IMG/VR virus record: IMGVR_UViG_3300024259_000016
Span: 1 to 64,000 of that record
Source of the DNA: a virus
Strand: one strand, 5' to 3'
DNA: 64,000 bases
The notes beneath the pieces are model-generated. The model did not search any database and was not told where the DNA came from. It was given only the letters and a program-made list of their open reading frames with translations. Every line of letters begins with the position of its first letter. The first letter of the stretch is position 1. Shown one piece after another: positions 6,505 through 23,778 of the stretch. The translations under genes were made by a program, and so were the position numbers.

Positions 6505-6539
6505 GGGTTTCTGTAAATGTAACCTTTGTCCACAGGTTT
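6505..6539. repeat. 35-bp repeat, inverted copy at 15419-15453
   Basis: Identical over 35 bp to the reverse complement of 15419-15453. It contains AATGTAACCTT and TTGTCCACA (a one-mismatch DnaA-box-like 9-mer). Both copies lie in gaps flanking helicase genes that carry inteins. Confidence 0.8.
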
Positions 6540-9600: not shown

Positions 9601-10500
9601 CAGGAACCCGGAGGCTTCGAAGTTATGATGTGGCCCCTTCATCTTGATGTCGTATGTACGCTGCGGCCCAGCCGGGGAGACCGACTTAACGATTCCGACC
9701 CGGGTATATTTGATGCCAAAGTTTTCATCTTTGCCATGAAGTCTGGCATGGGCCTTTTTCGACAGCAGCTGTAGATTCTCAGGGACATCATTGAGGGAGT
9801 CCTCATCCTTATGGTGGACCTCCAACTTAGGGTCCAGATAAGAGAAGATGGAGGGCAAGTCTCCCCGAGTTTTCAAGATTGCAACATAGTCGGAATAAGG
9901 AATCCCATTGATGGAGGCTTCCAGGACCAAACGAGCCCGCGGCACTTCCCAGTATCTGTACTTCTCCTCACGAATACGGAGGGTCCCGGCGGGATGATGG
10001 ACATGGAGGGTAACAACCCGACGTTTAGCATATCGGGTTCTCCCTTCCCCCTTCTTAGGGAGCATATTCCCGAGGAGAAGGACCTCATCGCCGGCGGACA
10101 GTTGCCCGGCCGGCTTTCCATCAATAAGGTCCGAAGGAGTCAGGAAGGGATGGTCCCGGGTACATGTTAATTCCAGGCCGCATCGGGTCGTAACGATGAG
10201 ACAGTCCTGAACTCCGGAATCCACGATGGCCTCGATCTCGCGGTAGGCCACAACCCCCCCAGGCTCAATCGACTTGATCCTAGATGTCATGGACAGGTCC
10301 CGACCTATCGACCTCCTGCACGGGAGACCATTGAATTTCCGGTAGGCCTCCTCGATTGTGTAGGGCCGAGATCCGGGTCGTTGTCCCCTGCTAATACCCA
10401 CGATAGCGTCGGCTGCGAGGCAACCTGGGTTGCCGGCCACCACCGAGGGGCCCAGGCGATGCACCGCTACTTGCTGCTGATCTTCATCCAGATTAATCAT
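6619..10500 (-). CDS. UvrD/PcrA-type superfamily 1 helicase with two inteins
   Basis: 1293 aa precursor; removal of two inteins (residues 27-303 and 555-912) leaves a 658-aa helicase. Extein motifs: I VVAGNPG/SGKT, Ia TFTRAACGEM, II VVIVDEAQD, III LAGDLSQ/SVYSWRTAEP, IV LPNNYRSTDKI, V LSTIHGFKGKEARNV, VI RLLYVSVTRAQDRL. These are the UvrD/Rep 3'-5' helicase signatures. Both inteins begin with Cys, end His-Asn and are followed by Ser, and they interrupt catalytic motifs I and III, so an unspliced protein should be inactive. Start ATG 10500 has AAAAGGA upstream and a dyad at 10516-10536. The C-terminus is ...NVTFDE. Confidence 0.92.
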   Translation of the reverse strand: MINLDEDQQQVAVHRLGPSVVAGNPGCLAADAIVGISRGQRPGSRPYTIEEAYRKFNGLPCRRSIGRDLSMTSRIKSIEPGGVVAYREIEAIVDSGVQDCLIVTTRCGLELTCTRDHPFLTPSDLIDGKPAGQLSAGDEVLLLGNMLPKKGEGRTRYAKRRVVTLHVHHPAGTLRIREEKYRYWEVPRARLVLEASINGIPYSDYVAILKTRGDLPSIFSYLDPKLEVHHKDEDSLNDVPENLQLLSKKAHARLHGKDENFGIKYTRVGIVKSVSPAGPQRTYDIKMKGPHHNFEASGFLVHNSGKTRCLLERVRDLVEAGVDSWRILLVTFTRAACGEMIERLSGMGIEGCEVRTIHGLCYDRGPKMAPWLFDAMSHDEDGALPAAQRAQVDRLKKMKVIPEMIVDHEVLSTFMSRCKNTGPVPWRKDWFGLNDNGRELVRRIAESWLADKMPIDSQQALTMYQEIEALRWDMAKYSYDDVQSFVWHLLIGSPDLLAWWRSQWSVVIVDEAQDCSGIQHDLMRLAAGLPSRIYPTVGGSDRDQNLMLAGDLSQCLNPHTTMIQTKTRGRVLLRDIEAGDSVGSCQGGKQVFRTVQHAGATDKTEITKIKTASGRILEGSSDHLVFACMPHSNVRFYTYLMWRKDMGFRIGLTQGAKNAARHSVSVRALHEGADALWLLDCHETAADAALQELQLSLRYKVPTLPFKTVGRKLRLSEAGAAAIFKEFGCKGGPKILKLFHMLFAWPTYLPQSQVGKRIIITLTLGVKNNRPAELTCESQELAPQKIREAITACTGISVRDGRRGTARIRRRYPSGAEAHAAAEQIGDIVAGATKIRAVLRVSLSSAKGPCGEKMTAMPLANLVPGTWIWGDDGAPDEVVAKTGYRSEEPLELRDLDIDGTTNYFANGIAVHNSVYSWRTAEPGVILQFIDRDKAKLFKLPNNYRSTDKICTLGSAVVKGRPWHLAGQIRPRRAEGGEPIEFKTFESRMDEVKWIVDKAQELGLGETTVLARTAAVLHWISIWCTKNEVPYIKLCGGFILDGREARDLLNYLRVGAGLDVDGTALRAVMNVPKRFVGRPQYAAAEGSEETDLIDKILDKARLIKPQRLALRSLKELIIRLRIMGREGRGPAEMMKFVIDEIGYVEYLAEKFGLTKAEGSEGAFIVLEELMEFASEFDTVGELLAQVDLLRRMHEMHRQAQGQAGPSQGDVLTLSTIHGFKGKEARNVILADVVHGRFPGAKSKMDPELSQEETRLLYVSVTRAQDRLFVTRTKPGYLDPDSPFWRFLRNVTFDE
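7765..8838 (-). other. Intein 2 in motif III (GDLSQ/S) of the UvrD-type helicase
   Basis: 358 aa (precursor residues 555-912). Splice signatures: N-terminal CLNPHTTMIQTKT with IEAGD, block B-like GSSDHLVFAC, C-terminal block TTNYFANGIAVHN then Ser+1. The central ~200 aa carry a segment with YKVPTLPFK and helical stretches; no HNH motif and no clean LAGLIDADG pair is visible. The insert may be a degenerate or unrecognised endonuclease. Confidence 0.9.
9592..10422 (-). other. Intein 1 in Walker A (GNPG/SGKT) with HNH endonuclease
   Basis: 277 aa (precursor residues 27-303). Block A begins CLAADAIVGI, block B is CTRDHPFL, C-terminal blocks are RTYDIKMKGPHHNFEASGFLVHN (split here: RTYDIKMKGPHHNF then EASGFLVHN) followed by Ser+1. 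An HNH-type nuclease motif LEVHHKDEDSLNDVPENLQ lies at precursor residues ~226-244, so this is a potentially active homing intein placed in the P-loop. Confidence 0.93.
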
Positions 10501-10515
10501 TGACGTCTTGTCCTT

Positions 10516-10536
10516 TTACCTATAAGATATAGGTAA
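10516..10536. promoter_or_regulatory. Dyad TTACCTATA-AGA-TATAGGTAA upstream of UvrD-type helicase
   Basis: Perfect 9-bp arms with a 3-nt centre, 16-36 nt upstream of the helicase ATG and just before its AAAAGGA site. Could be an operator, or a small hairpin in the leader. Confidence 0.5.
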
Positions 10537-10573
10537 GGAGAGGTCTATTCACAGGTCTCTTTTAAAGCTTTTC

Positions 10574-11299
10574 TCAACCCTCGTCGTGGCATTCATGGGC
10601 CATGTCGAGTCCATCGATCGGGACCAGAGGATCAACCTCCCGCAGCTCACCGAGCAGCCGCTTCTCGATGTCCTCATCTGTATCCATGACCGAACGCTTC
10701 TTCTCGACGGCCTGGAACACCCGCATGATCACCGCGGCATAGTCCTCGATGAGGATCCCATACCCCCGCCGCAGGTACTTGCGCACCCGGAGCAACGACC
10801 CCCCAGCATCCTCCTCCCTGTCCGGCCGGGTGTAGACCAGGCGCTTGGCAGCCACATCCTCATAGAAGCGGTCAGAGCACAAACTCTTCCAGCACTGCCC
10901 CCCTGTGCCCTGGGGGTTGTTATCCCACCACACAGCAGCCTGGACTATGGTGAAGTCGAAGCTCTCCACCAACGACTCAGCATCCGTGTACAGCCACCTG
11001 AAGATGTATTGGACGGCCAGCCGGCCCAGGGACAGGACGGTATAGGCGTTCTGGGTAGCATGGAACTTACCCTCCCGTCCCTTGGTCAACAGCCGGGCCT
11101 GTTCCCCCAGGACCAACTGGTTCCCCCCGAAGACGTCAATGTCCCCGGGGGTATCACCAGCGACCAGCGCCCGGATGAACCCCCCTCCGACGAACAACCC
11201 CCGTCCGACGAACAACCCCCGTCCTCTCATCTGAGCCGCCAGGTCCCGGGGAATGTGAGTGACCACCCTGGCCAGGTCTTGTTTATTAAGCTCCCTCAT
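10574..11299 (-). CDS. Nucleotidyltransferase-fold protein (Pol beta-like)
   Basis: 241 aa. GGGFIRALVAGDTPGDIDVF (about residues 36-55) matches the G-G...D-x-D signature of Pol beta-type nucleotidyltransferases, with DI-DV as metal ligands, as in phage relatives of the tRNA nucleotidyltransferase/poly(A) polymerase head domain. The N-terminus has an in-frame duplication RGLFVG/RGLFVG encoded by an 18-nt direct repeat near 11189-11222. The gene follows the nuclease gene by 1 nt. Substrate unknown; helical C-terminus ends acidic. Confidence 0.6.
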   Translation of the reverse strand: MRELNKQDLARVVTHIPRDLAAQMRGRGLFVGRGLFVGGGFIRALVAGDTPGDIDVFGGNQLVLGEQARLLTKGREGKFHATQNAYTVLSLGRLAVQYIFRWLYTDAESLVESFDFTIVQAAVWWDNNPQGTGGQCWKSLCSDRFYEDVAAKRLVYTRPDREEDAGGSLLRVRKYLRRGYGILIEDYAAVIMRVFQAVEKKRSVMDTDEDIEKRLLGELREVDPLVPIDGLDMAHECHDEG

Positions 11300-11300
11300 C

Positions 11301-13976
11301 TCAGTCCTCCTCCTTTGTCCCGGCCAGCAGCCTGGCGATCATCTCGGCGACGATCATCTTGCGGGGGATGGCGTACCACTTGGCGCCCTTGAGCAGCTTG
11401 GCCTTGGTGGGGCCCCTGTCGGGCTCAGGCTCCGATTCCCCGGCCAGTGGGCTCTTACCGTCACCAGGCAACAACCAGCTCACGCAGATCTCTCCAGTGG
11501 CCTCCTTGGCGCACAACAGGGGATCATCCTTGGAGCCTCGGCTGACCCGGTCGACCAGGGACTTGAGCAGTCCATCGCAGGCCTTCTTGATCTGCTTGTC
11601 GTCGAGGCCATCAGGGGTATCCCCGAACAGTTGGCCCAACCAATGCTTGTCGGTGTCGTCGACCCAGTCATGTAGCTGGTCGGGCTCAAGCGCCCCAATG
11701 CTCTCAACGCACTCATACTGGTACTTGAAGTACGGAATGATCTGGTCAGCGATACCCGCAGCCCCGCCCTCCTTGACATCCCGAGTGCTGGACAAGCCCT
11801 CGGCAACAGGCTTGGCCGACGGCGCCGAGTACCCGGCGGGGGGCTTTTCGAAGTAGGGCCCTCCACGCTGTAGCACATCGATGACCCGCTCATCGGACTG
11901 CACAAACTTGTGATCCATCCCGGTCAGCCCGCACAAGCCCATCGAGCACATCTCGAAGAAGTCGCAACGCCCCCACCGGCCGACACAGTTGACCGTGCAC
12001 TTGGGGAACCAGTTGTCCACGGTCAAGCCCCTCTTCTTCACCTCCTTTTCCTTGCCCCACAGGACAAGGTGCTGGGCCAGGTCGGTAGCCGCGGGGATCA
12101 TCTCATGTTCCCAACACCGCTCGATGTCCGCAGCCTTGCAGTCAGTAGCCACCCGCACCACATCGTCAGGGGCGATAGCCTGCACACCACCCTCTTCCCG
12201 TGGCTTTACCATGATGGTGACCTGGGTCTGGGCCAGCGGCCCCCACCCATCCGTCTTCTCGTAGTTCCCGTACCGAACCAGGGCGCCGTACCCCGTCAGC
12301 TGGAAGTCCAACCCGAAGGCCTGGTAGAGCTCCAGGGTGAGCATGGAGGCTGTCTTCTCGTCGTGTACCACCACCCCAGCTCGGCCGTCCACGTCCCGAG
12401 CGCCCCGGGACACATCATCCAGGCGCCCCACAAACCGCAACCGCCGACGACCCAGTCCAGTGATCGATACAGGCTCTTCGCACACCGCCTCCAGCCGACA
12501 CTCAACAGCCAGGATGCGACCCCCGTCCTCGACCGACTTGTCCAGGTGCCCGAACTTGGACAACCTCGTCCGCAGGCATGCCCGGGCGATGGCCAGCTCC
12601 TCCCCCAGCACCCCAGCACCAGCCTTGTTCTCGACGAACCGCAGCGGATCCTCCCACCGGTCGAGGCCATAAGACTTGGCGAACTGCAGGCTCGCATGTA
12701 CCAGCGTCCCGATCTGGAACTGTTGCTGCGGCAACCTGTGCTTCAGCCCCAACACATGGGCCAGGAACACCCGCCGCTTGCACTGCTGCCAGTCGATCAG
12801 GATGTGGATGTTGAATCCCCAGTCCAAAGACGACCCACCCGAGTATCCCTTCAGGCCGCCCAACAGCACCCCCACATCAGGCTTACCCAGGGCCAGCCCG
12901 ATCTCCTCCTCCCTCAGGATAGAGTCGATCAGCGAGATAGACTCACCACCACCCTCAGGCAGCTCGGGGAGGGGTGCGGACGACGACCCCTCAGGCACCT
13001 CAACCTCAGCTCCCAGGCCCTCACCCAGGTCCTTGCTCTCCTCTTCAGGAACCTCGACCTTCTTGCTCTCCCAGGCCGGCGCCTCCTCCCCTCGAAGAAC
13101 GAATACATGCTCCAGCTTCACCCAGCCTGGTTCATCTGTGTATGACCCTTCGAGCTTTGCCCGACAGTAGACCTTGTCACCTGACACCTGCTGGAGCAGG
13201 GCGCAATCGAAGGACATGTTGTCAGCGACAGGGCCGAAGCCCGTCTCCACGTCCCCCTGCCTGATAGCAACTGCCCCCTCATACCCCACGGCGTCAACAG
13301 GGAACGGGACCCACTTGTCCTGGAACTCCAGCTCCTTGTGGCCCAGGTCAACGCCACACCCATCACACTGGTCCCTCTCGTGCATCTCGTAGGAGAGGCG
13401 AGCCTGGCACTTGGGGCACTTGCCCCGCGGGTCATCCTTTTCCTTCTCGAGCATCGGGTTGCTCTTGACCTTCTTCTTTCTCTTCGTCACAGGCACCCGG
13501 ATCATCGAGGTAGGCGTCCAGGTCCCGGGGTCATCATCGGTCTTGCATAACAACAGGAACTCCTGGCCGTCCTCTTCCCGACGGTAGTAGTCCCGCAGCT
13601 CCCCCAGCTCAGGGTAGCCGCCCGACACCCGCAGCAGGCCCTGCATCCCGACCTCCCGCTCACTGGCCGGCAGCCACTCGATCTCCTCAGGCCCAGGCCC
13701 CTCGTAAGGCCCCCGCTCTGCCTCATCCTTGGCCAGGTCCAGGCGTGCCTTCGCAGCATCCGACTCAGCTCGAATCTCCTCGACCGCCTTGGGGCAGATG
13801 CGATCCGCCTCGTAGTACTTGTCGCAGTAGGCATGGACATCCGGGGTCCGCATCCCGATCTCCCCACCCCAGCAACCCCGCGGCATGGGCCCCGTCGTTA
13901 CTCCAGCCTCGGCATCGATAGCCACCACCTGCCCACATCGGCACATCACTGCACTGTTACTCTCCGGCTTACCCAT
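11301..13976 (-). CDS. Cas4/RecB-like PD-(D/E)XK exonuclease with zinc ribbons
   Basis: 891 aa. N-terminal third: Cys pairs (CRC; CPKCQARLSYEMHERDQCDGC at ~187-207, a zinc ribbon). Nuclease domain ~385-680: Cys399 (WQQCKRR), GTLVHASL with His427, GRLDDV (Asp520), VVVHDEKTAS (Asp539-Glu540-Lys541), the QxxxY motif QLTGY at 559-563, then a Cys cluster at 660, 664, 671 and 677. This order (Cys...H...D...E-x-K...QxxxY...three Cys) is the 4Fe-4S nuclease layout of Cas4/AddB. It probably processes DNA ends in recombination with the neighbouring helicases. The C-terminal ~200 aa are unassigned. Confidence 0.85.
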   Translation of the reverse strand: MGKPESNSAVMCRCGQVVAIDAEAGVTTGPMPRGCWGGEIGMRTPDVHAYCDKYYEADRICPKAVEEIRAESDAAKARLDLAKDEAERGPYEGPGPEEIEWLPASEREVGMQGLLRVSGGYPELGELRDYYRREEDGQEFLLLCKTDDDPGTWTPTSMIRVPVTKRKKKVKSNPMLEKEKDDPRGKCPKCQARLSYEMHERDQCDGCGVDLGHKELEFQDKWVPFPVDAVGYEGAVAIRQGDVETGFGPVADNMSFDCALLQQVSGDKVYCRAKLEGSYTDEPGWVKLEHVFVLRGEEAPAWESKKVEVPEEESKDLGEGLGAEVEVPEGSSSAPLPELPEGGGESISLIDSILREEEIGLALGKPDVGVLLGGLKGYSGGSSLDWGFNIHILIDWQQCKRRVFLAHVLGLKHRLPQQQFQIGTLVHASLQFAKSYGLDRWEDPLRFVENKAGAGVLGEELAIARACLRTRLSKFGHLDKSVEDGGRILAVECRLEAVCEEPVSITGLGRRRLRFVGRLDDVSRGARDVDGRAGVVVHDEKTASMLTLELYQAFGLDFQLTGYGALVRYGNYEKTDGWGPLAQTQVTIMVKPREEGGVQAIAPDDVVRVATDCKAADIERCWEHEMIPAATDLAQHLVLWGKEKEVKKRGLTVDNWFPKCTVNCVGRWGRCDFFEMCSMGLCGLTGMDHKFVQSDERVIDVLQRGGPYFEKPPAGYSAPSAKPVAEGLSSTRDVKEGGAAGIADQIIPYFKYQYECVESIGALEPDQLHDWVDDTDKHWLGQLFGDTPDGLDDKQIKKACDGLLKSLVDRVSRGSKDDPLLCAKEATGEICVSWLLPGDGKSPLAGESEPEPDRGPTKAKLLKGAKWYAIPRKMIVAEMIARLLAGTKEED

Positions 13977-14001
13977 CAGTTTTGTCTCCTTATCGAGTTA
14001 T

Positions 14002-14385
14002 CTATCCGACCCGGTGGAACAACCGGATCTGGTCAGCTTGTTCAGGTGTCAGCAGTAGGACAGTACGGCCCCCTGTCTCCATAGACTTTCCCCGTCCAGG
14101 TTCAGGGAGCACACACTCCCGCTCCATCTCCAGGATCTTCTGGCGGCTCACCCCCAATTCCTCGCCCAGTTGCACCCTGGTAATCCGCTCGCCCTTGGCG
14201 CCCCGCATCCACTTGATCTTCAGGCGGTAGCATTGCTGGTGCAGGGCCTTCTTCGTCACCCCCAACCGACGAGCACCCACCTCCATGGAAACCTTCCCAG
14301 CCAGGTGCAGCAGTCCCTCTCGGCGGGTCATCCTCTCCCCCCCGATCCGAACACCCTCATTCCAGATTCCTCTCTTGCCAGCCAT
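14002..14385 (-). CDS. Helix-turn-helix DNA-binding protein
   Basis: 127 aa from ATG 14385 (GAGGAG upstream). Two HTH-like segments are visible: SMEVGARRLGVTKKALHQQCYRLK and RVQLGEELGVSRQKILEMERE, so it may contain two tandem DNA-binding units. Located between the nuclease and the helicase C-terminal half. Candidate regulator for the local dyads, but no direct link is seen. Confidence 0.65.
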   Translation of the reverse strand: MAGKRGIWNEGVRIGGERMTRREGLLHLAGKVSMEVGARRLGVTKKALHQQCYRLKIKWMRGAKGERITRVQLGEELGVSRQKILEMERECVLPEPGRGKSMETGGRTVLLLTPEQADQIRLFHRVG

Positions 14386-14395
14386 CAGTCTCTCC

Positions 14396-15298
14396 TCACA
14401 ACCAGAGCCACATACCAAGAAGCGTCAGCCCCGCCCCAACGGCAACCCCGAACAATACTCCCCAGACGGGACCAGGCACCCAGCTCTCCTGTATAGGTTC
14501 TCTCGGCGCCACCTTCTCGACGGTATCAGCGAGGCTCAATCCCCCTCCCTGAATTCCCTTATGCAGCTCTCTCTTGAAGTCCTCCACCATGGGGCCAATG
14601 ATCCTTTTCACTTGTTCTCTTTGTTCAGGACTCGGTGGGAGTATCACCAGCTGGGTGTTATCAGGTGGGGGGATAACTCCCTTCCCCCCTTCGTAGCCTG
14701 CAGCAGCCAAAGCATCCAACTGCCTCTGCCTGTGCGGCCCATCCCCCACGAAGATACGGAAGTCAGGCCCTCCACCGATGCGGCTTCCCCTGCCCCCGGC
14801 CTGGATTACAGTATCTGGCGCCCCCACCCCAGGATCCAGGGCCACCCACTGAACGTTCGGGATGTCAATCCCTGTCCCCCACACTCGAGTCGCTACGGCT
14901 ACCCAGGCATCCCCGTCATCCAGACGCTGCCGCATCCCCTCTCGCAGCACCTTGCTCTTGACCCGGGCATCACTCACTTCGATGACCCGGTCCCCCCGGA
15001 ACCCCTCGATCCCGAGCAGCCCCAACCGTATCTTCAGCCACTGGGCTATCAGGTCCCCTGTCGGCAGGTCCCCCACCAACACCAAACCTGGCCAGCTCCC
15101 CTCGCTCAAAGCCACCAGCACATCCTTCAGGATGCCCTCCCAGGCGACATCCAGCCGGCCCTGCTCCCCCCACAGGCTCGACCCACTCGCCCCCTTCTCA
15201 CCACCGGGCTCAATCCCACCGTCGTGCCAGTTAACAACAGCTCCACCACCCGCCAGCTGGATCTCCCTGTCCCGGGGGTTACCTTTGCACGGACCCAT
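14396..15298 (-). CDS. Superfamily 2 helicase, C-terminal half (split gene) with membrane tail
   Basis: 300 aa. Helicase C-terminal lobe: GLVLVGDLPTGDLIAQWL (motif IV region), VAVATRVWGTGIDIPNV (motif V, ~133-149), VIQAGGRGSRIGGGPDF (motif VI, ~164-180). It lacks the N-terminal lobe, which is encoded by 15784-17838; the two would have to associate after translation. Oddity: residues ~278-300 form a hydrophobic segment (VWGVLFGVAVGAGLTLLGMW) that would be a C-terminal membrane anchor, unusual for a helicase. AGGAAAG lies upstream of ATG 15298. Confidence 0.8.
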   Translation of the reverse strand: MGPCKGNPRDREIQLAGGGAVVNWHDGGIEPGGEKGASGSSLWGEQGRLDVAWEGILKDVLVALSEGSWPGLVLVGDLPTGDLIAQWLKIRLGLLGIEGFRGDRVIEVSDARVKSKVLREGMRQRLDDGDAWVAVATRVWGTGIDIPNVQWVALDPGVGAPDTVIQAGGRGSRIGGGPDFRIFVGDGPHRQRQLDALAAAGYEGGKGVIPPPDNTQLVILPPSPEQREQVKRIIGPMVEDFKRELHKGIQGGGLSLADTVEKVAPREPIQESWVPGPVWGVLFGVAVGAGLTLLGMWLWL

Positions 15299-15529
15299 CA
15301 GATTCCCAGCTTTCCTGTAATGTAACCTTCTCCCAACAATATCGTCACCTTACACGCCATCTTATACTCCCTTGCCCGAAAATCCCCAAATATAACAGCT
15401 ATCCGATATCATTGTGGAAAACCTGTGGACAAAGGTTACATTTACAGAAACCCACGTCACACCTTATGCGCATGTGCGCGATCCCCGGGACTACTACCTG
15501 CGGTAGCAGCCCCAGTAGTAGTACCAGTA
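15299..15529. other. Intergenic segment inside the split helicase: repeats, DnaA-like boxes, hairpins
   Basis: Holds no gene. Seen: TTTTCCACA on the minus strand (15413-15421, fits the DnaA-box consensus) next to TTGTCCACA (15424-15432, one mismatch); the 35-bp repeat at 15419-15453; a shorter AATGTAACCTT copy at 15321-15331; an A/T-rich stretch around 15385-15415; and overlapping hairpins at 15490-15534. May act as promoter/leader for the C-terminal half, as a terminator of the upstream genes, or as an origin-like site. Confidence 0.5.
15419..15453. repeat. 35-bp repeat, inverted copy of 6505-6539
   Basis: Exact reverse-complement match to 6505-6539. Both contain AAGGTTACATT (this orientation), which also appears at 6629-6639 and, reversed, at 15321-15331. 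Confidence 0.8.
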
Positions 15530-15534
15530 CTACT
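15490..15534 (-). terminator. Overlapping hairpins downstream of the 85-aa gene
   Basis: ACTACTAC (15490-15497) can pair with GTAGTAGT (15515-15522); alternatively AGTAGTA (15514-15520) pairs with TACTACT (15528-15534). The two structures are mutually exclusive. No clear U-run follows, so terminator function is tentative. Confidence 0.3.
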
Positions 15535-15787
15535 CATCGGAGGAATCCTCTTTGCGCTCAGCCGGGACCCAGAGGTGGAATGTCATGTAGCTCGGGAGGC
15601 ATCCTCCATTACTGATGGCCCTGGCTGCCTTTTCGATAGGTGTTGTGTCTTTGTCGGACGGGGACTGGCGGAGCAACACAGTGGCTTTTCCTTCCTCGCT
15701 CAGCCCCAGTCGGTCTTCAACAAAGGTCTGCTCAAGCAGGTTCTCGCACTCCAAGCACAGGCCATCTTCATCAAAGGTAACTTTCAT
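15530..15787 (-). CDS. Hypothetical acidic protein between helicase halves
   Basis: 85 aa, start overlaps the N-terminal helicase stop (ATGA). Begins MKVTFDEDGLCLECENLLEQ with a CxxC, acidic C-terminus. No family recognised. It lies at the point where the helicase gene is divided, so it may belong to the insertion that split it. Confidence 0.55.
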   Translation of the reverse strand: MKVTFDEDGLCLECENLLEQTFVEDRLGLSEEGKATVLLRQSPSDKDTTPIEKAARAISNGGCLPSYMTFHLWVPAERKEDSSDE

Positions 15788-17838
15788 GTCCTCACAACCT
15801 CCCCGCGGGCTAGGTACCCACCCCGCTCCAAGTCAGCAATCTCGGCCACCCGTACAATAGGCCCCAGCGCGCACAGCATCAGGCAGTTCCGACCGTCTTG
15901 TCTCCCATCAGGAGTAGCTGTCAGGCCAATACGGCAGCGGGCCCTGAGGCGCCCCAGGACGGGCAAACGTGTATTACTCATGGCTGCATGGCAGTTATGG
16001 ACTACAAATCCGTTAGCGGTGTAGGTGTGCAGCCCCTCAACCTCGAGATTGTAGACAAGACCGTCTGGGCACACCCTCTCGTATTCTTCAAAACTTCCTT
16101 GTTGGAAAACCTGAATACGATCCACCCGAGTCCAGCGAGGAACTTGTCTTTCTTCCGGTCCTGACCTCGCCTCTCTGAACTGTTGTGACTCTGGCCGTCT
16201 ACCTCGATGGCTACCATCAGATCCGGTTGGGCAATGTCGATCTTGTAATGGGTGGGATATCCCCTGGATTTCGGGCCCACCCCTTCTGGAAGGCCTAGTC
16301 TCGTCGGGACAATGTGCTCCATTCCCCAACCGAGTAAACCTGCCAGCATTCGTTGGGGGACTGTAGGTTCTCGTCCGTTGCCCCCCCTCTCGACCCCTTC
16401 CGGCCAGCCCCTCTCCCTCACCTTGGCGGTCACCAGGGCGCGAACCTTGGGATCCTTCATCGGGTTGTTCTTCCGCATTCGCTCGGATGACTTCTTTGAC
16501 CACTCCTCGCGATGCTCCTCCCGGGTTCTGGCCCACACCTTCACTCGGTATTCCTTGACACATTGAACCGAGCAGTAACCCCCCTTTCCTCGGGAAAGTT
16601 GGTAGAGGGCAGACGGGCCCCGACTCCCCTGACAGATAATCCCCTTCCCGCAGTTTATGCAGTTCGTCTTGACTCTCTTCCTTCGTTCTTCCCTCCTCGT
16701 CAATTTGCATGTTTGGCAGAACAGGGATGCTCCGTTGTGATGTCTTTTCTTCCCTGTCTCCTGTCCGCATCTGTCGCAGGTGCCGTCTATCGATCTCTTC
16801 TGATGACCTTTTACTGTTTGATTCTCCATGCTTTCTGTACCCCTCTGGTTTGTGGTAGGGTACAGTGTATAGCACTCTGTCGTTGCGAGCAATCGTCTTG
16901 GCTGGTATCCAGCCTCGTTGGGTGAAAACGGGGTGTTCCTCGGTGCAGATGAATGAACCATCCTGCGTGGTAATCTGGATCAGAGATGATGGGGCTTTTC
17001 TCACGAAAGTTCCTGTGACGGTCCTCCTCTCAAGATTCCCAGATGTCTCATTGTAGGCACTGACTTGGTCCCCGATCTCAATGTCCTCAATGGGCTTTCC
17101 GTCAACCAAGGTCCCTGCTGGGAAGCACTCATCAATCACAACGCCGTCCAGGGCCCCCACAGCCTCCCCAGCAGTCCCTACGGACATGCACTGAGGCACC
17201 CCCTGCCCAACATCCCCACCAACCACATCCCTCATCTCAGGGATCACCCTGTCAAACACCTTCTGGGTCTGCCGAGCCAGCTCCTGGTTCACCACCAGGT
17301 ACCCGACCTTCTCTAGTCCAAGCAGCTCCTGCATGCACATAAGCAGCCCCGCGGCCATCACAGTTTTGCCACTGCCGGTCGCAGCTTGGATCACACACCT
17401 CCCCCACGGTGCACACAACCCCTCCACGATCCCCTCAGCTTGGTAATCACGCAGCGGCATCAGCAGCCCTTCATCCCGCAACGTCAGGACAGCTGACTCA
17501 ATCCGCAGCTGAATCAGCTCGGGCAACCAGGGATTAACAACAGCCCCCCCAACACCCCGGAGCCGGAGCAGCATAGGCTCAGTCTCATGCACTATATGCA
17601 GCCAGCTCATCATGCCCACGGGTACCTGCCCACTCGACAGAGAGCCCGCCCTCAGCACCTCAAGGGCCCCCTGGACTTCCATAACCAATTCTTCAGTACT
17701 GACGCGCCCATCCCGCATCTCCCGGGACCGATACCCCAAGGTCGTTCGCTCGTAGGCCGCCAACATGCTGACGAGGTTTGCCCTCCTACATCCCCCATGC
17801 CCCCAGGTATCCCCCATCCCGTCGACCAGAACGATCAT
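15784..17838 (-). CDS. Superfamily 2 helicase, N-terminal half, with intein in the DECH box
   Basis: 684 aa precursor; the spliced product would be 306 aa. LRDYQAEGI (~129-137), Walker A AATGSGKT (~152-159), LVVNQELARQT (motif Ia), VVIDE (Walker B, ends residue 237) / intein 238-615 / CHAAM, then IGLTATPDGRQDG (motif III). It ends after one RecA lobe (GPIVRVAEIADLERGGYLARGEVVRT), the point where XPB/SSL2-like helicases continue into the C-terminal lobe. That lobe is encoded separately at 14396-15298. The N-terminal ~120 aa are an unassigned helical domain. Confidence 0.85.
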   Translation of the reverse strand: MIVLVDGMGDTWGHGGCRRANLVSMLAAYERTTLGYRSREMRDGRVSTEELVMEVQGALEVLRAGSLSSGQVPVGMMSWLHIVHETEPMLLRLRGVGGAVVNPWLPELIQLRIESAVLTLRDEGLLMPLRDYQAEGIVEGLCAPWGRCVIQAATGSGKTVMAAGLLMCMQELLGLEKVGYLVVNQELARQTQKVFDRVIPEMRDVVGGDVGQGVPQCMSVGTAGEAVGALDGVVIDECFPAGTLVDGKPIEDIEIGDQVSAYNETSGNLERRTVTGTFVRKAPSSLIQITTQDGSFICTEEHPVFTQRGWIPAKTIARNDRVLYTVPYHKPEGYRKHGESNSKRSSEEIDRRHLRQMRTGDREEKTSQRSIPVLPNMQIDEEGRTKEESQDELHKLREGDYLSGESGPVCPLPTFPRKGGLLLGSMCQGIPSEGVGQNPGGASRGVVKEVIRANAEEQPDEGSQGSRPGDRQGEGEGLAGRGREGGQRTRTYSPPTNAGRFTRLGNGAHCPDETRPSRRGGPEIQGISHPLQDRHCPTGSDGSHRGRRPESQQFREARSGPEERQVPRWTRVDRIQVFQQGSFEEYERVCPDGLVYNLEVEGLHTYTANGFVVHNCHAAMSNTRLPVLGRLRARCRIGLTATPDGRQDGRNCLMLCALGPIVRVAEIADLERGGYLARGEVVRT
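15994..17127 (-). other. Intein 3 (DE/CHAA site) containing an out-of-frame endonuclease gene
   Basis: 378 aa. N-terminal splicing half (~100 aa): CFPAGTLVDGKPIEDIEIGD (block A), CTEEHPVF (block B). C-terminal splicing half (~50 aa): block F-like DGLVYNLEVEGLHTYTANG and terminal VVHN before Cys+1. The ~230 residues between, in this frame, are low-complexity with no domain, because that DNA encodes a homing endonuclease in another frame. The frame nevertheless stays free of stops, which splicing requires. Confidence 0.93.
16002..16829 (-). CDS. Vsr-like (EDxHD-type) homing endonuclease nested out of frame in intein 3
   Basis: 275 aa from ATG 16829 (AGAGGGG ~10 nt upstream). Order: zinc finger 1 (Cys18, 21, 38, 41), zinc finger 2 (Cys57, 60, 86, 90), a NUMOD3-like segment SERMRKNNPMKDPKVRAL (~115-132), then a Vsr/DUF559-type nuclease core: YKIDIAQPD (Asp198), AIEVDGQSH (Glu209, Asp211, His215), Asp/Lys-rich helix, LGWIVFRFSN (~234-243). 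This matches freestanding Vsr-fold homing endonucleases. The frame is shifted by one relative to the host intein, and the C-terminal ~46 codons overlap the intein C-terminal splicing blocks. It presumably cuts intein-less helicase alleles to mobilise the intein. Confidence 0.88.
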   Translation of the reverse strand: MENQTVKGHQKRSIDGTCDRCGQETGKKRHHNGASLFCQTCKLTRREERRKRVKTNCINCGKGIICQGSRGPSALYQLSRGKGGYCSVQCVKEYRVKVWARTREEHREEWSKKSSERMRKNNPMKDPKVRALVTAKVRERGWPEGVERGGNGREPTVPQRMLAGLLGWGMEHIVPTRLGLPEGVGPKSRGYPTHYKIDIAQPDLMVAIEVDGQSHNSSERRGQDRKKDKFLAGLGWIVFRFSNKEVLKNTRGCAQTVLSTISRLRGCTPTPLTDL

Positions 17839-18110
17839 TCTGAGTCCTTAGTGATGGGATCAGGTTCAACGAACAGCATGCATCCGCAGTAACTCTTGCG
17901 AATCTTTTGCGGGTGATACCCCGTCCCTTTGTCCTTCTTAGCGGGTGCAGCACCGGAGATGCACATCCCTTTGGGAAGTGTTGTCCAACCTCGATCACTC
18001 TGCGGCGGCTCGCCCTTGCGAGAAGGCTGGTCCAGGTGGCTATCCCGAGGATGCCCACAGCGAGCACAGATATTTTCGGGAGTTCGGTACTTATCTGACC
18101 AATGCGGCAT
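17835..18110 (-). CDS. Hypothetical zinc-ribbon protein
   Basis: 91 aa from ATG 18110 (AGGAGG 8 nt upstream; a GTG at 18119 is possible). CARCGHPRDSHLD near the N-terminus and CGCMLF near the C-terminus supply Cys/His for a zinc site. The 3' end overlaps the helicase start (ATGA), so it is probably in the same operon. Confidence 0.65.
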   Translation of the reverse strand: MPHWSDKYRTPENICARCGHPRDSHLDQPSRKGEPPQSDRGWTTLPKGMCISGAAPAKKDKGTGYHPQKIRKSYCGCMLFVEPDPITKDSE

Positions 18111-18181
18111 CACTCCCACCTCCTCTTGGCGTCCCGCTTGTTAAAGCGTTTATCGAACCAGTCTATTTTGCGCCAACTCAT
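18110..18181 (-). CDS. Very small basic peptide (23 aa)
   Basis: MSWRKIDWFDKRFNKRDAKR..., start overlaps the upstream stop (ATGA), stop overlaps the next start (TGATG), and AAGGAG lies 6 nt upstream. The perfect fit in the coupled series supports translation. It may serve mainly to couple its neighbours. Confidence 0.5.
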   Translation of the reverse strand: MSWRKIDWFDKRFNKRDAKRRWE

Positions 18182-18333
18182 GATTGCTCCTTAGCGGTGC
18201 CTTTTGCTTTATCCATCTCTTGCCGCGCCCACCTGGCCCCGTCGAATTGGCCGTTGAATTTCCCAATGCAGTATCCGGCCCAGTAGCCCAGTCCGCCCAC
18301 CGCAAAAAGGCTGATCAAAATAATCTCGCCCAT
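18178..18333 (-). CDS. Small single-span membrane protein
   Basis: 51 aa; MGEIILISLFAVGGLGYWAG forms an N-terminal transmembrane helix, followed by a polar, charged tail (WARQEMDKAKGTAKEQ). AGGAGGAG precedes the start. Function unknown; it belongs to the coupled series 18940-17835. Confidence 0.6.
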   Translation of the reverse strand: MGEIILISLFAVGGLGYWAGYCIGKFNGQFDGARWARQEMDKAKGTAKEQS

Positions 18334-18335
18334 GG

Positions 18336-18506
18336 CTACTCCTCCTGCTCCTTTGGGGTGGTTACCATTCCGAGGATCACCCTCAGAGCCTTCAGTCGGG
18401 CCTGTGGCCCACCGCGCTTCATGTGGCTATTCCAAGGTGACCGGAGGAACTTTTCGGTATCCTCGATCTCCTCGAGCAACCATTCGATGGCCTCGGGTTC
18501 CGTCAC
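18336..18506 (-). CDS. Hypothetical small protein, GTG start
   Basis: 56 aa, GTG start overlapping the upstream stop as GTGA. Begins VTEPEAIEWLLEEIEDTEKF, acidic helix then a basic helix (QARLKALRVILGMV). Start choice rests on the overlap; no ATG precedes the conserved-looking part. Confidence 0.55.
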   Translation of the reverse strand: MTEPEAIEWLLEEIEDTEKFLRSPWNSHMKRGGPQARLKALRVILGMVTTPKEQEE

Positions 18507-18940
18507 TGGCTCGGCTCTTTTTGGGTCGTTTGTGCATCCATCAAGCCCAGCCGGTTAGCCGCCTCCCGCACCTGGTCCATGTCCTTGCCGTACCCCCACG
18601 GATCGCCGTTGCTGTACCAGAGGGGGAAGGGGCCAAGGTGGCTTGCGGTGAACGTCGCGCCGTCTGCGACATACCTGGTGAGGTAACGACAGAGCGCCAG
18701 GAGGGTGCCGCCCTCAGAGAATCCACGGGGGGACCATCGCCACCAGTAGCGGGTGAAGCAGGCGATGTGCTTTTTGGTGAACTTATCCACGAACCAAACG
18801 CGGCCCCGATCATCCACGATGAAGCAGGACACTGATTGTTCATGGTGAAAGAACCGGCGGCCGCAGTTGGCGATAATGCGGATGAACTCATTCGCAATGA
18901 TCGCCCTCGACTCCCTGCCTTCAATCTTTTTTTGACGCAC
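18503..18940 (-). CDS. Hypothetical protein
   Basis: 145 aa from GTG 18940, which has AAGGAG 8 nt upstream and overlaps the preceding gene by 20 nt; upstream in-frame starts would overlap by more than 90 nt. Mixed alpha/beta with RVWFVDKFTKKHIACF and WRWSPRGFSEGGTLLALCRYL. No domain recognised. Confidence 0.55.
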   Translation of the reverse strand: MRQKKIEGRESRAIIANEFIRIIANCGRRFFHHEQSVSCFIVDDRGRVWFVDKFTKKHIACFTRYWWRWSPRGFSEGGTLLALCRYLTRYVADGATFTASHLGPFPLWYSNGDPWGYGKDMDQVREAANRLGLMDAQTTQKEPSQ

Positions 18941-19727
18941 TGGCCAGCTCCTTTGGGGTGGTTGGGGGCAAAGACTCTGAGGATACCCAGATGTCTCCCA
19001 CCGAGCACCACCCACTGTGGTCTCCGCTCTCATCGTAGCCCCCAGCCTCGGACCACCCCCTCAGGAAGTAAGCAGGTCCCCCATCCCCTACACCAGGACA
19101 CTCAGCCATGAACGATTGGAGCAGCGCCACACCCCCGATCACAGGGGAGTACACCCCTGTCTGGAGATCCACAGCGGACCCATCGGCCGGCGGATTCACA
19201 TAATCAGGAGGCACCCCTTCAGGCGGTTGTACAGCAAGTTGCTCCCGATCCATCTCAGATCCCTCTTCGTCTCCATCCCCCAAAAGAGGCTCACGGAAGC
19301 CATCAGGTCCAACCAGAACGGCTTGTTTAGCTAGCCCCAGTGCCCCGACACACATATCCACAAAAGCTTCGCCACTGTCCTTAGTCAGTTCCCCTCCTGC
19401 GTCAAGCTCAGGTTGCTCAGCAGGTTTGTCGCCGGTGAAGTAGGGCACCACTCGCTCGAGCCCAGTGTAACCTCCCTTCTTCTGGCAGGTGGCCAGCTCC
19501 TCAAGAGCATCTCCCAACCCAGGCCCTGCGCCAATAAACGGGGAGGTCCTTGAGCTCTGAGCTCCCTTGGTCCCCAGGGCTCGAATGTTCCAGCACTTGT
19601 GGCCCTGCATCCAGTCTACAGAGATCGAGTCTCCACCGTTGCAGTCCACCAGATAGGCACCCACCCGGTTCAGCAGCTCCACCTCGGCCGCCCCAAGTAC
19701 CAGTTCCTGCTCTTGCTGATCACTCAT
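18921..19727 (-). CDS. Hypothetical acidic protein, head of a leftward run
   Basis: 268 aa from ATG 19727 (GGAGG upstream). Ordered N-terminal ~110 aa (VGAYLVDCNGGDSISVDWMQGHKCWNIRA), then an acidic, Gly/Pro-rich remainder. Divergent from the 19777 gene across a 49-bp gap. No recognised function. Confidence 0.6.
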   Translation of the reverse strand: MSDQQEQELVLGAAEVELLNRVGAYLVDCNGGDSISVDWMQGHKCWNIRALGTKGAQSSRTSPFIGAGPGLGDALEELATCQKKGGYTGLERVVPYFTGDKPAEQPELDAGGELTKDSGEAFVDMCVGALGLAKQAVLVGPDGFREPLLGDGDEEGSEMDREQLAVQPPEGVPPDYVNPPADGSAVDLQTGVYSPVIGGVALLQSFMAECPGVGDGGPAYFLRGWSEAGGYDESGDHSGWCSVGDIWVSSESLPPTTPKELASASKKD

Positions 19728-19776
19728 GATTCCGTTATCCTCCACAGGGAATACTAATTTCCACAGGTGCATTGAA

Positions 19777-21222
19777 ATGAGTCTGTCTGGACCCGATAAA
19801 CCCAACCCCCTCCTCGACCATCCCCCCCAACCCCCCCGTCAGGAACCGGATGCCCCGGTCGATCCGGTGGCCATGGAGAATTACGTCCAGGCCCTGCTCG
19901 GCCACGACGGCTCTCTCCCCTCCACCAAGGACTTCAAGGCCTGCGTTCCCACCCACAAGCGCAGGGACGCCCGCATCTCCTGGGGCACCATGTGGGAGCG
20001 TACCTTCCCGAAGATCACCAACGTCACCAAGACCATCCTCAGGACAGCTCCGCACCGCTGCACCCACAAACACTGGACCGCTGTCCTCGGTGCCGCCCTG
20101 TACCTCGATAACCAAGGCAAGCCTGTCACCACAGCCGCGGTCAACCATCACGCCCGGGAGCTGTACCCCGAGGACTGGCGCCCCCCCAGGACCAAAGCAT
20201 CCTGGACCAACAAGGCAGCTCTCATCCTCGAAGAGGGTTTGTGGCATCTCGGCCTCCCACCTGTCAGGGTCATCCTTCATCAGTATCCGGCTGCCATGAT
20301 CCCAGCCAACGAGATTGCCAAGAGCGCATCGAAGCTTCTCGACGACGCACTGAGGCTCACCAAGTCGACTGGCCTTGGCATACCGCCCGAACCATCCGAG
20401 CCAGGAGATGGTGCCACAAGTGGCACACAAGTCAACCATAAACTCACACAAGATACCCAAGAACTCACCCCCCCAGAGGACCCGGCGCAGGCCATCGCCC
20501 ATCAAGCCCGGACCATGTCCTTGCTCCCTCGAGAACACTTTCTCAAGATGGCCACCGGCGCCGCGGCCGACTCCAAGGCCCGGCAGCTCGCCGCCTCTGA
20601 GACCACCCTCGAAATCGTCTCCAAGCTTGGGGACCTCTTGACCGGCCACCTGCTCACCATCTACCAGAAGGCCATCACGGAACCTGACTACTTTGAGGTC
20701 CCCGAGAAGATGACCACCGGGCACATGGAGAAGCTCGCCAAGACGGCTGCCGCCCTCCAGTCGGCTACTGCCAGCGCGGTCCAGACTTCCCGTCAGATTG
20801 CTGGCGAGCCTACCAAGTCCATCCTGCATGGGCTCATCTACATCGCATCCTCGATGACCCCGGCCGAGAAGGTCTACTACCGAGAGACAGGCGACCTCCC
20901 TGCCCGTCTCCTCACAGGTGGCTCTCCCGACACCCACCCCGGCGCCGAGGACTTCGACCCGGGCGTCACCCAGCTTCCCAGCGGCGCACCTACCATCGTC
21001 GACATCCCCAACACCCCATCCCCGGAGGACGACCCCAGCTTCACGGCCAGGCCCACCGACCCAGACTATGTTACCCAGCTCGCTGCCCATGCCCTCCGAA
21101 CACCGGAGGACCAAGACCCAGTGCATCAGGCCGCACTGGCCGCGTCCCCCATCGTGCCCCAGACACCAGAGGAGGAAGAGATCCTGACCTCCCCGTCGGT
21201 CCTCGACCGATTCAAGAAGTAG
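19777..21222 (+). CDS. Putative terminase small subunit or packaging accessory protein
   Basis: 481 aa from ATG 19777 (upstream in-frame ATG at 19726 has no ribosome site and would overlap the divergent gene). Pro-rich N-terminus, a central helical region containing an HTH-like segment (MIPANEIAKSASKLLDDAL), then a long coiled region (ASETTLEIVSKLGDLLTG) and acidic Pro-rich C-terminus. The assignment is positional: it ends 7 nt before the large terminase. It is larger than usual small terminases. A GTGCCAC/GTGGCAC dyad lies inside it at 20411. Confidence 0.45.
   Translation: MSLSGPDKPNPLLDHPPQPPRQEPDAPVDPVAMENYVQALLGHDGSLPSTKDFKACVPTHKRRDARISWGTMWERTFPKITNVTKTILRTAPHRCTHKHWTAVLGAALYLDNQGKPVTTAAVNHHARELYPEDWRPPRTKASWTNKAALILEEGLWHLGLPPVRVILHQYPAAMIPANEIAKSASKLLDDALRLTKSTGLGIPPEPSEPGDGATSGTQVNHKLTQDTQELTPPEDPAQAIAHQARTMSLLPREHFLKMATGAAADSKARQLAASETTLEIVSKLGDLLTGHLLTIYQKAITEPDYFEVPEKMTTGHMEKLAKTAAALQSATASAVQTSRQIAGEPTKSILHGLIYIASSMTPAEKVYYRETGDLPARLLTGGSPDTHPGAEDFDPGVTQLPSGAPTIVDIPNTPSPEDDPSFTARPTDPDYVTQLAAHALRTPEDQDPVHQAALAASPIVPQTPEEEEILTSPSVLDRFKK
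20411..20426. promoter_or_regulatory. Intragenic dyad GTGCCAC-AA-GTGGCAC with minus-strand -35 box
   Basis: Perfect dyad within the coding region of the putative small terminase. On the minus strand it is preceded by TTGACT (20430-20435), the same order as in the 32.1-kb operator. The matching -10 position (ACCATC) is poor. Could be an antisense promoter, or an operator used as a roadblock. Confidence 0.45.
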
Positions 21223-21229
21223 GCCCACC

Positions 21230-23245
21230 ATGGAAACTACTACAATCCTGGAAGCCGCCCCGGACCTCGGCACCTTCACGCCCCTACCAGATCCCAACGA
21301 TATCCCTTGGTCACAGCGTGCACATGATCCTACAGCTGGCGGCCGGCTCCCCCACCCCAGTGCGGCACTCAAAGAGAGCATCGCCCAGGACCCCGACGCT
21401 GAGCTCATCCTCAAGGCAGCCCTCGACCTGCAGCACCGAATCGAGCTGGCTCGTCGCTCCCCCCTCCATCTCCTCATGCTTTGCTTCAGGCAGCCCAACG
21501 GAGCCGAGCTCTTCGTCCCCTCCTTCTATCTGGAATGGGATAAAGCCACCAGGACAGAGGGCCGCATCCTCTTTGAGGCCCCCCGTGGCGTAGGAAAGTC
21601 CGCCTTCATGATCGCCGCGGCCTTGTGGGCCATCGGTAACAATCAGAACATCCGCATCAAGTGGATCGGCCCCTCCGACGGTAACGCCCAGAAGAGGCTC
21701 GCCGTCATCCACGAGGTCTTGGATAACCCCAACCACATCTACCACCTGATCTTCCCCGGCATCGAGAAGACACCCAAGTCCTCCAAGCGGAAGAACAACC
21801 AGTCCCAGCTCAACCTGAAACGTACCCTCGACTCCCCCGACCCGACCATCGAAGCTCTCGGCGTCATGTCCTCCGGCGTCGGTGGCCGCTCCGAGATCCA
21901 GATCTGGGATGACTATGTCTCGGAATCGAACACTATCCTCAACCCAGCCATGCGCCCCAAGGTCCTGTCCAAGATGCAGAAGGACCACCTGGGTACCCTC
22001 CTCCCAAAAGGCGTCGTCTGGAACGTCTTTACGCCCTGGTCGCAGGATGACGCCAATGCCTACTTCAAGGAAAACACCTCCTGGAAGCTCCTCCGCCACC
22101 CTCACGGGATAGACGGGGACCCGTACCATTCCATCTTCCCGCAGCTCTGGCCTTCCCACAGGCTCAGGGAACGTCGTGCCGACATGGGCGAGCATGGTTA
22201 TGCTGCAGCCTACCTGCTCCGTCCCAGCGCCGCGGGCGTCATTCCCATCCTCCCGCAGCACCTCCGCCTGTTCGACAGAGCCATCCTCAACCAGGCCAAG
22301 ATTCTGGCCGGCGACACCCGCGTCATCATCACCATCGACCCGGCCCGTGGAGAAGAACTGGACAAGGGCGCCCTGTGCCCTGTCGGTATCAGCATCCAGA
22401 TGTATGTACCGAGAACACTGCCGGGGGACTCCCCTTCGGGGAGCACCCCGCGGGTAGTAGACCCTACCTCGGACAATCCCGACAACGACGAGGAGCTTTC
22501 CTTCAAGGGACTCCCCTTCGAGATCTTCCAGATCGATGCCTTCGAGTGCTACCTGTCGACCGCCGACCAGCCGAACCTCATCTGGCACCTGGCTAACCTC
22601 TACGGCGCCCACTACATCCTGGTCGAACGGGAAGCCTTAGCCGACCTGCACACCTGGCTCGAGCAGCGGCGTCACACCCTACTCAGACAAGCAGGAATAG
22701 ACCCGGCCAAGCTCCCTGTCAAGAAAGGCATCGGCGCAGAGGTCGTCCCGGTCAGCTCAGACAACCTATCCAAAGGGCAGCGGCTCCTCTCGATCACCCC
22801 ATACCTCCACCTCCCTGAGGCAAGCCCAGGTGTCCCGGCCCCCCCGGTCATGTACTTCCACCCTCGGTGCATCAGGCCCCGCCCCGAGATGGAGCTCCTC
22901 CATGTCCCCAACTACAGGTCCATCGAGGTCAAACGAGATCTCCGGGAACAGACACTCTCTTTCCCCGCCAAGTACAAGGACATCATCGATGCCGTCGTCC
23001 ATGGCGTACGTTGGATAGTTCGTTCCCTCGTCGGCCGAGACCCTTACGGACTGTTCGTCGAGAAGGATCAAGAGCAGGGCCCCCTCCAAGTGATTTCTTT
23101 GTCTCTTCGAGACAAAGAACGAGACGAACCAGGGTCAGGCGCCAGGGCCAAGCTCAAGCCAGGCTCGTCCGACAACCCAGACCCCGAACCCAATCCCTTC
23201 AAGAAGCGACACCGCCGCAAGGTCAAACCACCCGGCTTCCGCTAG
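21230..23245 (+). CDS. terL: Terminase large subunit
   Basis: 671 aa. ATPase: Walker A EAPRGVGKSA (116-125), Walker B IQIWDD (223-228), coupling motif WNVFTPWSQDD (264-274). RNase H-like nuclease: IITIDPARGEELDKGA (Asp370 first catalytic Asp), then IDAFECY and YILVEREA as later acidic motifs. It packages DNA into procapsids and cleaves concatemers. The C-terminal ~70 aa are basic. Begins 8 nt after the putative small subunit. The only unequivocal virion-assembly gene in the window. Confidence 0.93.
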   Translation: METTTILEAAPDLGTFTPLPDPNDIPWSQRAHDPTAGGRLPHPSAALKESIAQDPDAELILKAALDLQHRIELARRSPLHLLMLCFRQPNGAELFVPSFYLEWDKATRTEGRILFEAPRGVGKSAFMIAAALWAIGNNQNIRIKWIGPSDGNAQKRLAVIHEVLDNPNHIYHLIFPGIEKTPKSSKRKNNQSQLNLKRTLDSPDPTIEALGVMSSGVGGRSEIQIWDDYVSESNTILNPAMRPKVLSKMQKDHLGTLLPKGVVWNVFTPWSQDDANAYFKENTSWKLLRHPHGIDGDPYHSIFPQLWPSHRLRERRADMGEHGYAAAYLLRPSAAGVIPILPQHLRLFDRAILNQAKILAGDTRVIITIDPARGEELDKGALCPVGISIQMYVPRTLPGDSPSGSTPRVVDPTSDNPDNDEELSFKGLPFEIFQIDAFECYLSTADQPNLIWHLANLYGAHYILVEREALADLHTWLEQRRHTLLRQAGIDPAKLPVKKGIGAEVVPVSSDNLSKGQRLLSITPYLHLPEASPGVPAPPVMYFHPRCIRPRPEMELLHVPNYRSIEVKRDLREQTLSFPAKYKDIIDAVVHGVRWIVRSLVGRDPYGLFVEKDQEQGPLQVISLSLRDKERDEPGSGARAKLKPGSSDNPDPEPNPFKKRHRRKVKPPGFR

Positions 23246-23246
23246 C

Positions 23247-23262
23247 TCAAGTAATGGCTTGA
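23247..23262. terminator. Hairpin between convergent genes
   Basis: TCAAG-TAATGG-CTTGA, extendable to GCTCAAG/CTTGAAGC with a bulge, in the 21-bp gap between convergent terL and 23267. Short stem and no strong U-run; it could stop transcription from both sides. Confidence 0.35.
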
Positions 23263-23266
23263 AGCA

Positions 23267-23710: not shown

Positions 23711-23778
23711 GGGTACCCCTTGCTAAAGGTTGAGTGGTGGATGGTCACATCAGGCAGACCCGGCACGTTGTTTTCCCG

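Follow-up and report, generated by a model that had tools for sequence, protein, structure and literature searches.

We analysed a 64,000-nucleotide (nt) stretch of viral DNA, hereafter the window, comprising positions 1 to 64,000 of the 114,059-base IMG/VR virus record IMGVR_UViG_3300024259_000016. At 14,396-17,838 it carries a superfamily 2 (SF2) helicase that is interrupted in motif II by an intein. The intein frame is open throughout, and the same DNA contains, in the +1 frame, a gene for a predicted Vsr-like endonuclease. This nesting recurred in every related locus with both splicing blocks, and both frames are under selection. The helicase is in addition divided into two genes between its RecA lobes, a break that is separate from the intein. 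The contig is phage-like, with a terminase that matches phrog_38, and every feature of the locus is on its minus strand.

A predicted intein with an endonuclease in its +1 frame

In Pfam, the open reading frame (ORF) at 15784-17838 gave hits to ResIII (E 2.3e-9) and to Intein_splicing (PF14890, E 6.2e-9). Residues C1, T62, H65, H377 and N378 of the insert were invariant in all 48 rows of intein alignment A4, the rows being ended by a script at HN or SN, which makes the invariance of HN partly a matter of choice; the +1 residue after the window intein is a Cys. In the AlphaFold2 model of the intein frame, the predicted local distance difference test (pLDDT) score was about 94-98 over residues 1-90, mostly 90-98 over residues 328-378 and about 43-58 over most of the region between, and the best Foldseek structure matches of this model were Hint and intein structures. 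With its nucleophile, TxxH block B, HN, +1 Cys and modelled Hint fold, the window insert is, as judged from sequence and model, a Hint-type intein that is predicted to splice. Over the endonuclease stretch, the intein frame gave intein/Hint family matches at the two ends and nothing endonuclease-like. The window intein is thus not a full-length intein with an in-frame endonuclease domain, nor, its frame being open, does it belong to the fractured genes with split inteins. The original prediction of a complete intein holds for the splicing blocks; the middle, which has no in-frame endonuclease, is a linker of ~235 residues that is predicted to be disordered.

The +1-frame ORF gave matches to DUF559 (E 8e-11) and to MTES_1575. 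Its AlphaFold2 model (mean pLDDT 85.6) was aligned by VIA-align with the DUF559 protein 3hrl (Z 11.3), I-Bth0305I (3r3p, Z 9.6) and Vsr (1cw0, Z 8.7). Foldseek alone found no Protein Data Bank (PDB) match for it at E ≤0.001, and the fold call rests on VIA-align together with the sequence profile. In endonuclease alignment A2 (50 rows), D211, H215 and D224 were invariant and E209 was conserved in at least 90%. The EDxHD catalytic motif, which we take to consist of residues E, D, H and D, and a modelled PD-(D/E)XK Vsr-like fold are both present, indicating a putative EDxHD/Vsr-like enzyme. AlphaFold2 therefore yields predicted folds for the products of both overlapping frames.

A family with a fixed +1 relation

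Related loci were collected by endonuclease profile scans of IMG/VR and bacterial genomes and from phage records. The best 80 relatives were taken in each of four scans, from totals of at least 414, 336, 290 and 282. After the copies of the window (L001, L002, L004, L008, L015 and L175) and the empty sites (L255-L257) had been dropped, 325 loci including the window remained. One or both intein blocks were missing from 42 of them, namely 36 stand-alone DUF559 genes (L139-L174) and L100, L117, L124, L135, L279 and L310. The endonuclease lay between both splicing blocks in the other 283, and its frame was +1 in 283/283 (in frame, 0; +2, 0), the intein frame being open in 275. These 283 include repeat fetches of some contigs, which were removed by clustering at 80% amino acid (aa) identity; in the resulting non-redundant set the relation was +1 in 186/186 loci (180 open and 6 split). 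It was likewise +1 to the helicase in all of the first nine loci examined, and L117, L124, L135 and L310, which have the C-terminal block, showed the same relation. The host precursors of L085 and L104, each with a +1 intein, also match an in-frame LAGLIDADG domain, indicating that the methods used do detect endonucleases of the ordinary in-frame kind.

Among the 186 loci, the point of insertion is between E and x of DExH for 154, immediately behind this motif for 13, a further one or two residues on for 14 and elsewhere for 4; one was unplaced. The seven of these 186 hosts that were scanned are ResIII- or SNF2-type SF2 helicases. Forty loci came from bacterial genomes, 35 of which have a named phylum, covering 15 phyla or candidate divisions. 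Relatives of the endonuclease were found in 41 phage records, and the 40 listed sit under genes annotated as helicase, hypothetical protein and the like, so that the endonuclease is easily missed in phage records. In a Spirochaetaceae contig (L100:2992-3588), an endonuclease without a detected intein lies directly upstream of an SF2 helicase start; L279 likewise carries an endonuclease for which no intein was detected, and only the C-terminal block is present in L135.

Both reading frames are under selection

The number of stops expected in each frame was obtained by synonymous codon shuffling within each endonuclease, with codon usage kept. In the 180 non-redundant unsplit loci, the intein frame had 0 stops in 30,841 codons versus 1,278.9 expected. 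The third frame had 2,103 stops versus 1,997.0 expected, indicating no general avoidance of stops. In the six split loci, the intein frame had 23, 25, 35, 26, 15 and 27 stops versus 24.8, 24.2, 34.1, 30.1, 17.4 and 30.1 expected.

The endonuclease frame is under selection as well. In 65 unsplit pairs, its divergence at codon positions one to three was 0.242, 0.206 and 0.453 in the linker, and the third-position value dropped to 0.234 where the endonuclease overlaps the C-terminal splicing block. In split pairs (4 pairs, 107 codons) the third-position value in the overlap was also low (0.252), as it should be given that this stretch continues to encode the C-half. One set of bases, in a fixed register, specifies both GWxVLRF of the endonuclease and RV[ED]xVE of the intein. 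Since the intein motif is largely forced by GW, its conservation alone would prove little, and the argument for dual constraint is carried by the third-position drop and the confident Hint fold.

A clade with split inteins

In L130 and L258-L264 the N-half of the intein ends in stops and is followed by the endonuclease, in the same +1 relation, and then by the C-half. The split rows form one clade (Shimodaira-Hasegawa-like approximate likelihood ratio test, SH-aLRT, 99) beside three open rows (97), requiring one change on the tree, which was built by a quick method and in which the outgroup does not fall on one side of a branch. The split state, which is the layout of a fractured gene, appears to be derived from the open dual-coded state. 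We consider it rather probable that a widespread intein lineage in SF2 motif II is obligately dual-coded, with the endonuclease always in +1 and the bases of its last strand lent to the Hint fold so that neither can move, and that stops in the linker, by releasing the overlap, gave rise to fractured genes with split inteins.

Putative start of the endonuclease and mobility within the intein family

A start codon was present near the intein/endonuclease junction in 92/92 representatives. Shine-Dalgarno (SD)-like words preceded 36 of 85 endonuclease ATGs versus 80 of 539 ATGs in other frames (p 3e-8), the start being picked without regard to SD and the list of SD words being set by the author.

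Three empty/occupied pairs were found, phi674/phi673, 142E35-1/104E43.1 and VchM-138/Rostov M3, whose members differ by exactly the intein (302, 300 and 353 aa, respectively). The empty sites read DEVH or DEAH, and the occupied genes have C in place of V/A at +1. Upstream of the site, phi673 and phi674 differ at 1 of 300 bases; downstream, there are 7 mismatches in the first 100 nt and 0 in the next 200, a cluster as expected from co-conversion. As far as sequence comparison goes, the three precise empty sites indicate that inteins of this family are mobile. The window has 75% DNA identity to Pseudomonas phage MR14 at the 3' end of the intein, and its N-extein had no match in MR14.

The helicase is divided into two genes

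The original prediction of an SF2 helicase split at the boundary of the RecA lobes, with motifs I-III in one gene and IV-VI in the other and with an 85-aa gene and a repeat-bearing 231-bp gap between them, was borne out in its coordinates, ORFs, repeats and gene content (Table 1). The N-half has GSGKT, DE^CH (^, intein) and TAT, and the C-half, which matches Helicase_C (E 3.6e-6) in Pfam, has TRVWGTGIDIP and QAGGRGSR, all identified by eye. Thus, motifs I-VI and two RecA lobes are present, but as two genes. As the original prediction had proposed, we compared the locus with intact homologues, and these contain both halves. PHROG 16 (phage DNA helicase) is colinear with the two genes (profile positions 268-385 and 516-596 of 986), and a C-extein profile, built from 32 helicases that are not broken, aligns through its positions 1-49 with the end of the N-half (E 3e-8) and through 147-202 with the C-half (E 3e-7). 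In addition, L021 matches both pieces by BLAST with their order conserved.

The break falls 69 codons downstream of the intein, after motif III. In a ranking of 149 non-redundant loci, with the window counted in and contig-edge cases set aside, the window had the shortest C-extein in the same ORF, 69 aa (62 by script count), and the next was 200 aa. The helicase break is real, and it is private to the window phage among these 149 loci, all of which carry an intein of this kind. An identical copy of window positions 8399-21298 exists in a second assembly, IMGVR_UViG_3300022902_000012; this argues against an assembly error and adds no independent variation. This contig was the only relative found by helicase and terminase searches in IMG/VR. 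In phages, a search with the C-half gave no match, and one with the N-extein gave only two records, both of one archaeal virus, at E 0.01. The 85-aa ORF had no Pfam or NCBIfam match and one weak PHROG match (E 0.03).

Two further observations concern the C-half. Its end (14396-14470, minus strand) is hydrophobic and, by eye, membrane-anchor-like, which is odd for a helicase lobe. A 20-codon ORF (15298-15360, minus strand), perhaps a leader peptide, overlaps the C-half start with its TGATG end, also by eye.

Table 1 Features of the helicase-intein locus in the window
Feature	Coordinates	Strand	Evidence
Helicase N-half precursor, 684 aa	15784..17838	-	ORF list, Pfam, C-extein profile, motifs by eye
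N-extein (motif I and DE of motif II)	17128-17838	-	Part of helicase N-half
Predicted intein, 378 aa, C1 to HN, between E and C of DECH	15994..17127	-	PF14890, AlphaFold2 model, Foldseek to Hint/intein structures
N-terminal splicing (Hint) half, residues 1-90	16858..17127	-	pLDDT about 94-98
Intein-frame linker (endonuclease shadow), predicted disordered	16147..16857	-	pLDDT about 43-58 mostly; selection keeps it free of stops in relatives
C-terminal splicing half, residues 328-378, nearly all over endonuclease 3' end	15994..16146	-	pLDDT mostly 90-98; RV[ED]xVE register
Putative endonuclease gene, +1 frame, 275 aa, Cys-rich N-terminus, DUF559/Vsr-like	16002..16829	-	DUF559, AlphaFold2, structure alignment
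Shine-Dalgarno-like AGAGGGG, 10 nt before endonuclease ATG	16840..16846	-	Sequence; family enrichment
C-extein start, 69 aa (CH of motif II and motif III)	15787-15993	-	Part of helicase N-half
85-aa ORF, function not assigned	15530..15787	-	ATG overlaps N-half stop (ATGA)
231-bp gap carrying an inverted pair of AAGGTTACATT and words that resemble DnaA boxes	15299..15529	no strand	Repeat search; DnaA-box reading by eye
Helicase C-half, 300 aa, motifs IV-VI, hydrophobic C-terminal segment	14396..15298	-	Helicase_C, C-extein profile; segment by eye

Proposed pathway and alternative explanations

We propose that a mobile intein invaded the helicase gene at motif II and that its DNA codes for two proteins. 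Translation in the helicase frame would yield a precursor whose Hint halves are connected through the long disordered linker (~235 residues), and the Hint domain would splice itself out to restore DECH. Translation in +1, initiated at an internal ATG that has a separate ribosome-binding site, would yield a free homing endonuclease of the Vsr/EDxHD type, which would cut motif II sequences that lack the intein and so lead to the intein being copied in. The last conserved strand of the endonuclease (GWxVLRFS) and a Hint strand (RV[ED]xVE[VI]L) would fix the register through their shared bases, and loss of the open frame, with a start codon placed ahead of the C-terminal half, would have produced the split-intein clade. 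The division of the helicase between its lobes, seen in this phage only within the sample, would be a separate event. The +1 nesting, the selection on the open frame, the dual constraint, the two predicted folds and the precise empty sites are computed results, and from them we infer splicing, DNA cleavage and internal initiation of the endonuclease. We regard a dual-coded mobile intein in helicase motif II as a likely account of the whole. Several points weigh against it: 49 of the 85 endonuclease ATGs have no SD-like word; no empty-site relative of the window intein was found, its only copy being identical; in-frame relatives are possible beyond the best 80 of each scan; the contrast between open and split loci stands on 6 non-redundant split loci only; and the helicase halves, whose sole other copy is identical, offer zero variation for a test of selection.

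The endonuclease might instead be made by programmed +1 frameshifting, as a fusion with the N-intein, and the fixed relation in 283/283 loci would suit this. However, the start codon near the junction in all 92 representatives, the enrichment of SD-like words before it and the split clade, in which the N-intein ORF stops at the junction and the endonuclease still follows in +1, make frameshifting unlikely. Long off-frame ORFs are common around the locus, where 2-kb blocks have 57-63% GC, and an open second frame could also be a by-product of composition and codon usage and not of translation. We find this scarcely credible, since shuffles that preserve codon usage predict well over a thousand stops where none was seen, the third frame shows no avoidance and the split relatives have a neutral number of stops. 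Indeed, the shuffles and the split-clade contrast already refute it, unless the composition of that clade is odd.

For the broken helicase, the original prediction had drawn a parallel with the fractured genes found with split inteins and Vsr-like nucleases in phage metagenomes. The parallel was apt in that a predicted Vsr-like endonuclease lies in the +1 frame of the intein and a derived clade has a split intein, but it does not extend to the break. With its halves in one direction and a small ORF separating them, the helicase does resemble a classical fractured gene whose parts are united by trans-splicing of a split intein. Yet the window intein is not split and precedes the break by 69 codons, and PF14890 matches the record only at 15994-17094 (this intein) and 9592-10236 (a UvrD-like gene), leaving no intein sequence at the break. 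A split intein as the cause is thus very improbable. The break is also unrelated to the split-intein clade, being placed after motif III and having no intein piece. Alternatively, the helicase may be decaying, the 85-aa ORF and the repeat-bearing gap having been inserted between the lobes and having killed the gene, with the intein now in a dead gene; we give this slightly less than an even chance. In its favour, the break is unique to the window phage by the C-extein ranking, an independent copy of the broken helicase was not found and the gap repeat recurs elsewhere in the genome. On the other hand, both lobes retain their motifs and open frames, and the N-half stop overlaps the next ATG as in a working operon. 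Perhaps the two halves associate without splicing, which we judge about as likely as decay, and we hold either view weakly.

Relation to known systems

Fractured genes in which split inteins occur together with Vsr-like (EDxHD) endonucleases were reportedly described by Dassa et al. in 2009. Such genes resemble the present loci in having a Vsr/EDxHD-like endonuclease with an intein inside an enzyme gene, and the clade of L130 and L258-L264 shares their tandem layout of N-half, endonuclease and C-half. In contrast, the main family here has an unsplit intein with the endonuclease in +1 inside its open frame. The predicted nuclease fold is shared with I-Bth0305I and Vsr, as the alignments indicate (Z 9.6 and 8.7 with PDB 3r3p and 1cw0); I-Bth0305I is intron-coded and differs in this genetic setting from the intein described here. 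Our literature search found no account of this intein family, of the constraint on it or of its connection with split inteins, with prior description not excluded in Dassa 2009, Gorbalenya 1998 or Gosselin 2025, the last a preprint on non-canonical actinobacteriophage inteins that may treat out-of-frame endonucleases.

Out-of-frame endonucleases in phage inserts are already known, and one intein case has been mentioned in passing (PMC11855218, PMC4422536). In one of these sources, an HNH endonuclease is coded in another frame of a phage insert through which the host frame stays open (PMC11855218), a feature shared with the present family. No splicing domain was found there, whereas here a Hint intein is predicted to be combined with a Vsr-like enzyme, the two sharing the bases of conserved strands. 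In the Brucellaphage terminase, an intein-encoded HNH endonuclease is said to be out of frame (PMC4422536), which is again an out-of-frame intein-encoded endonuclease in a phage gene. The passage concerned is a remark on a single gene with an HNH enzyme, and contains no family, constraint test or split relatives.

Dual coding would explain how an intein carries a mobile endonuclease without being fused to it. The family is a large and clean case of overlapping genes with selection in both frames, and it suggests a concrete route from ordinary inteins to natural split inteins, the latter being widely used tools.

The gap repeat and other features of the window

The gap contains one copy of a 22-nt perfect repeat (15422-15443, minus strand), the other copy lying in the opposite orientation at 6515-6536 (plus strand). 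Each copy has a AAGGTTACATT inverted partner 113 nt off, and DnaA-box-like words (TTGTCCACA and TTTTCCACA) were recognized by eye at the repeat. Only these two copies occur in the 114-kb record with up to 2 mismatches allowed, and the second, inverted, adjoins the UvrD-like gene. The repeat could be a shared control or origin element inserted between the helicase lobes.

The UvrD-like helicase gene itself (6619-10500, minus strand) has two Intein_splicing matches and an in-frame HNH_3 match. A search for a same-strand nested ORF of at least 110 aa found none in it, so its intein looks like the ordinary in-frame kind. An Rfam scan of 10000-24000 gave no match, and promoter-like sites were at chance level (2 versus 1.6 expected). 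Terminator-like sites numbered 5 versus 2.2 expected, from which no conclusion was drawn. The sign of the GC skew flips near 50 kb (window position 50001 onward).

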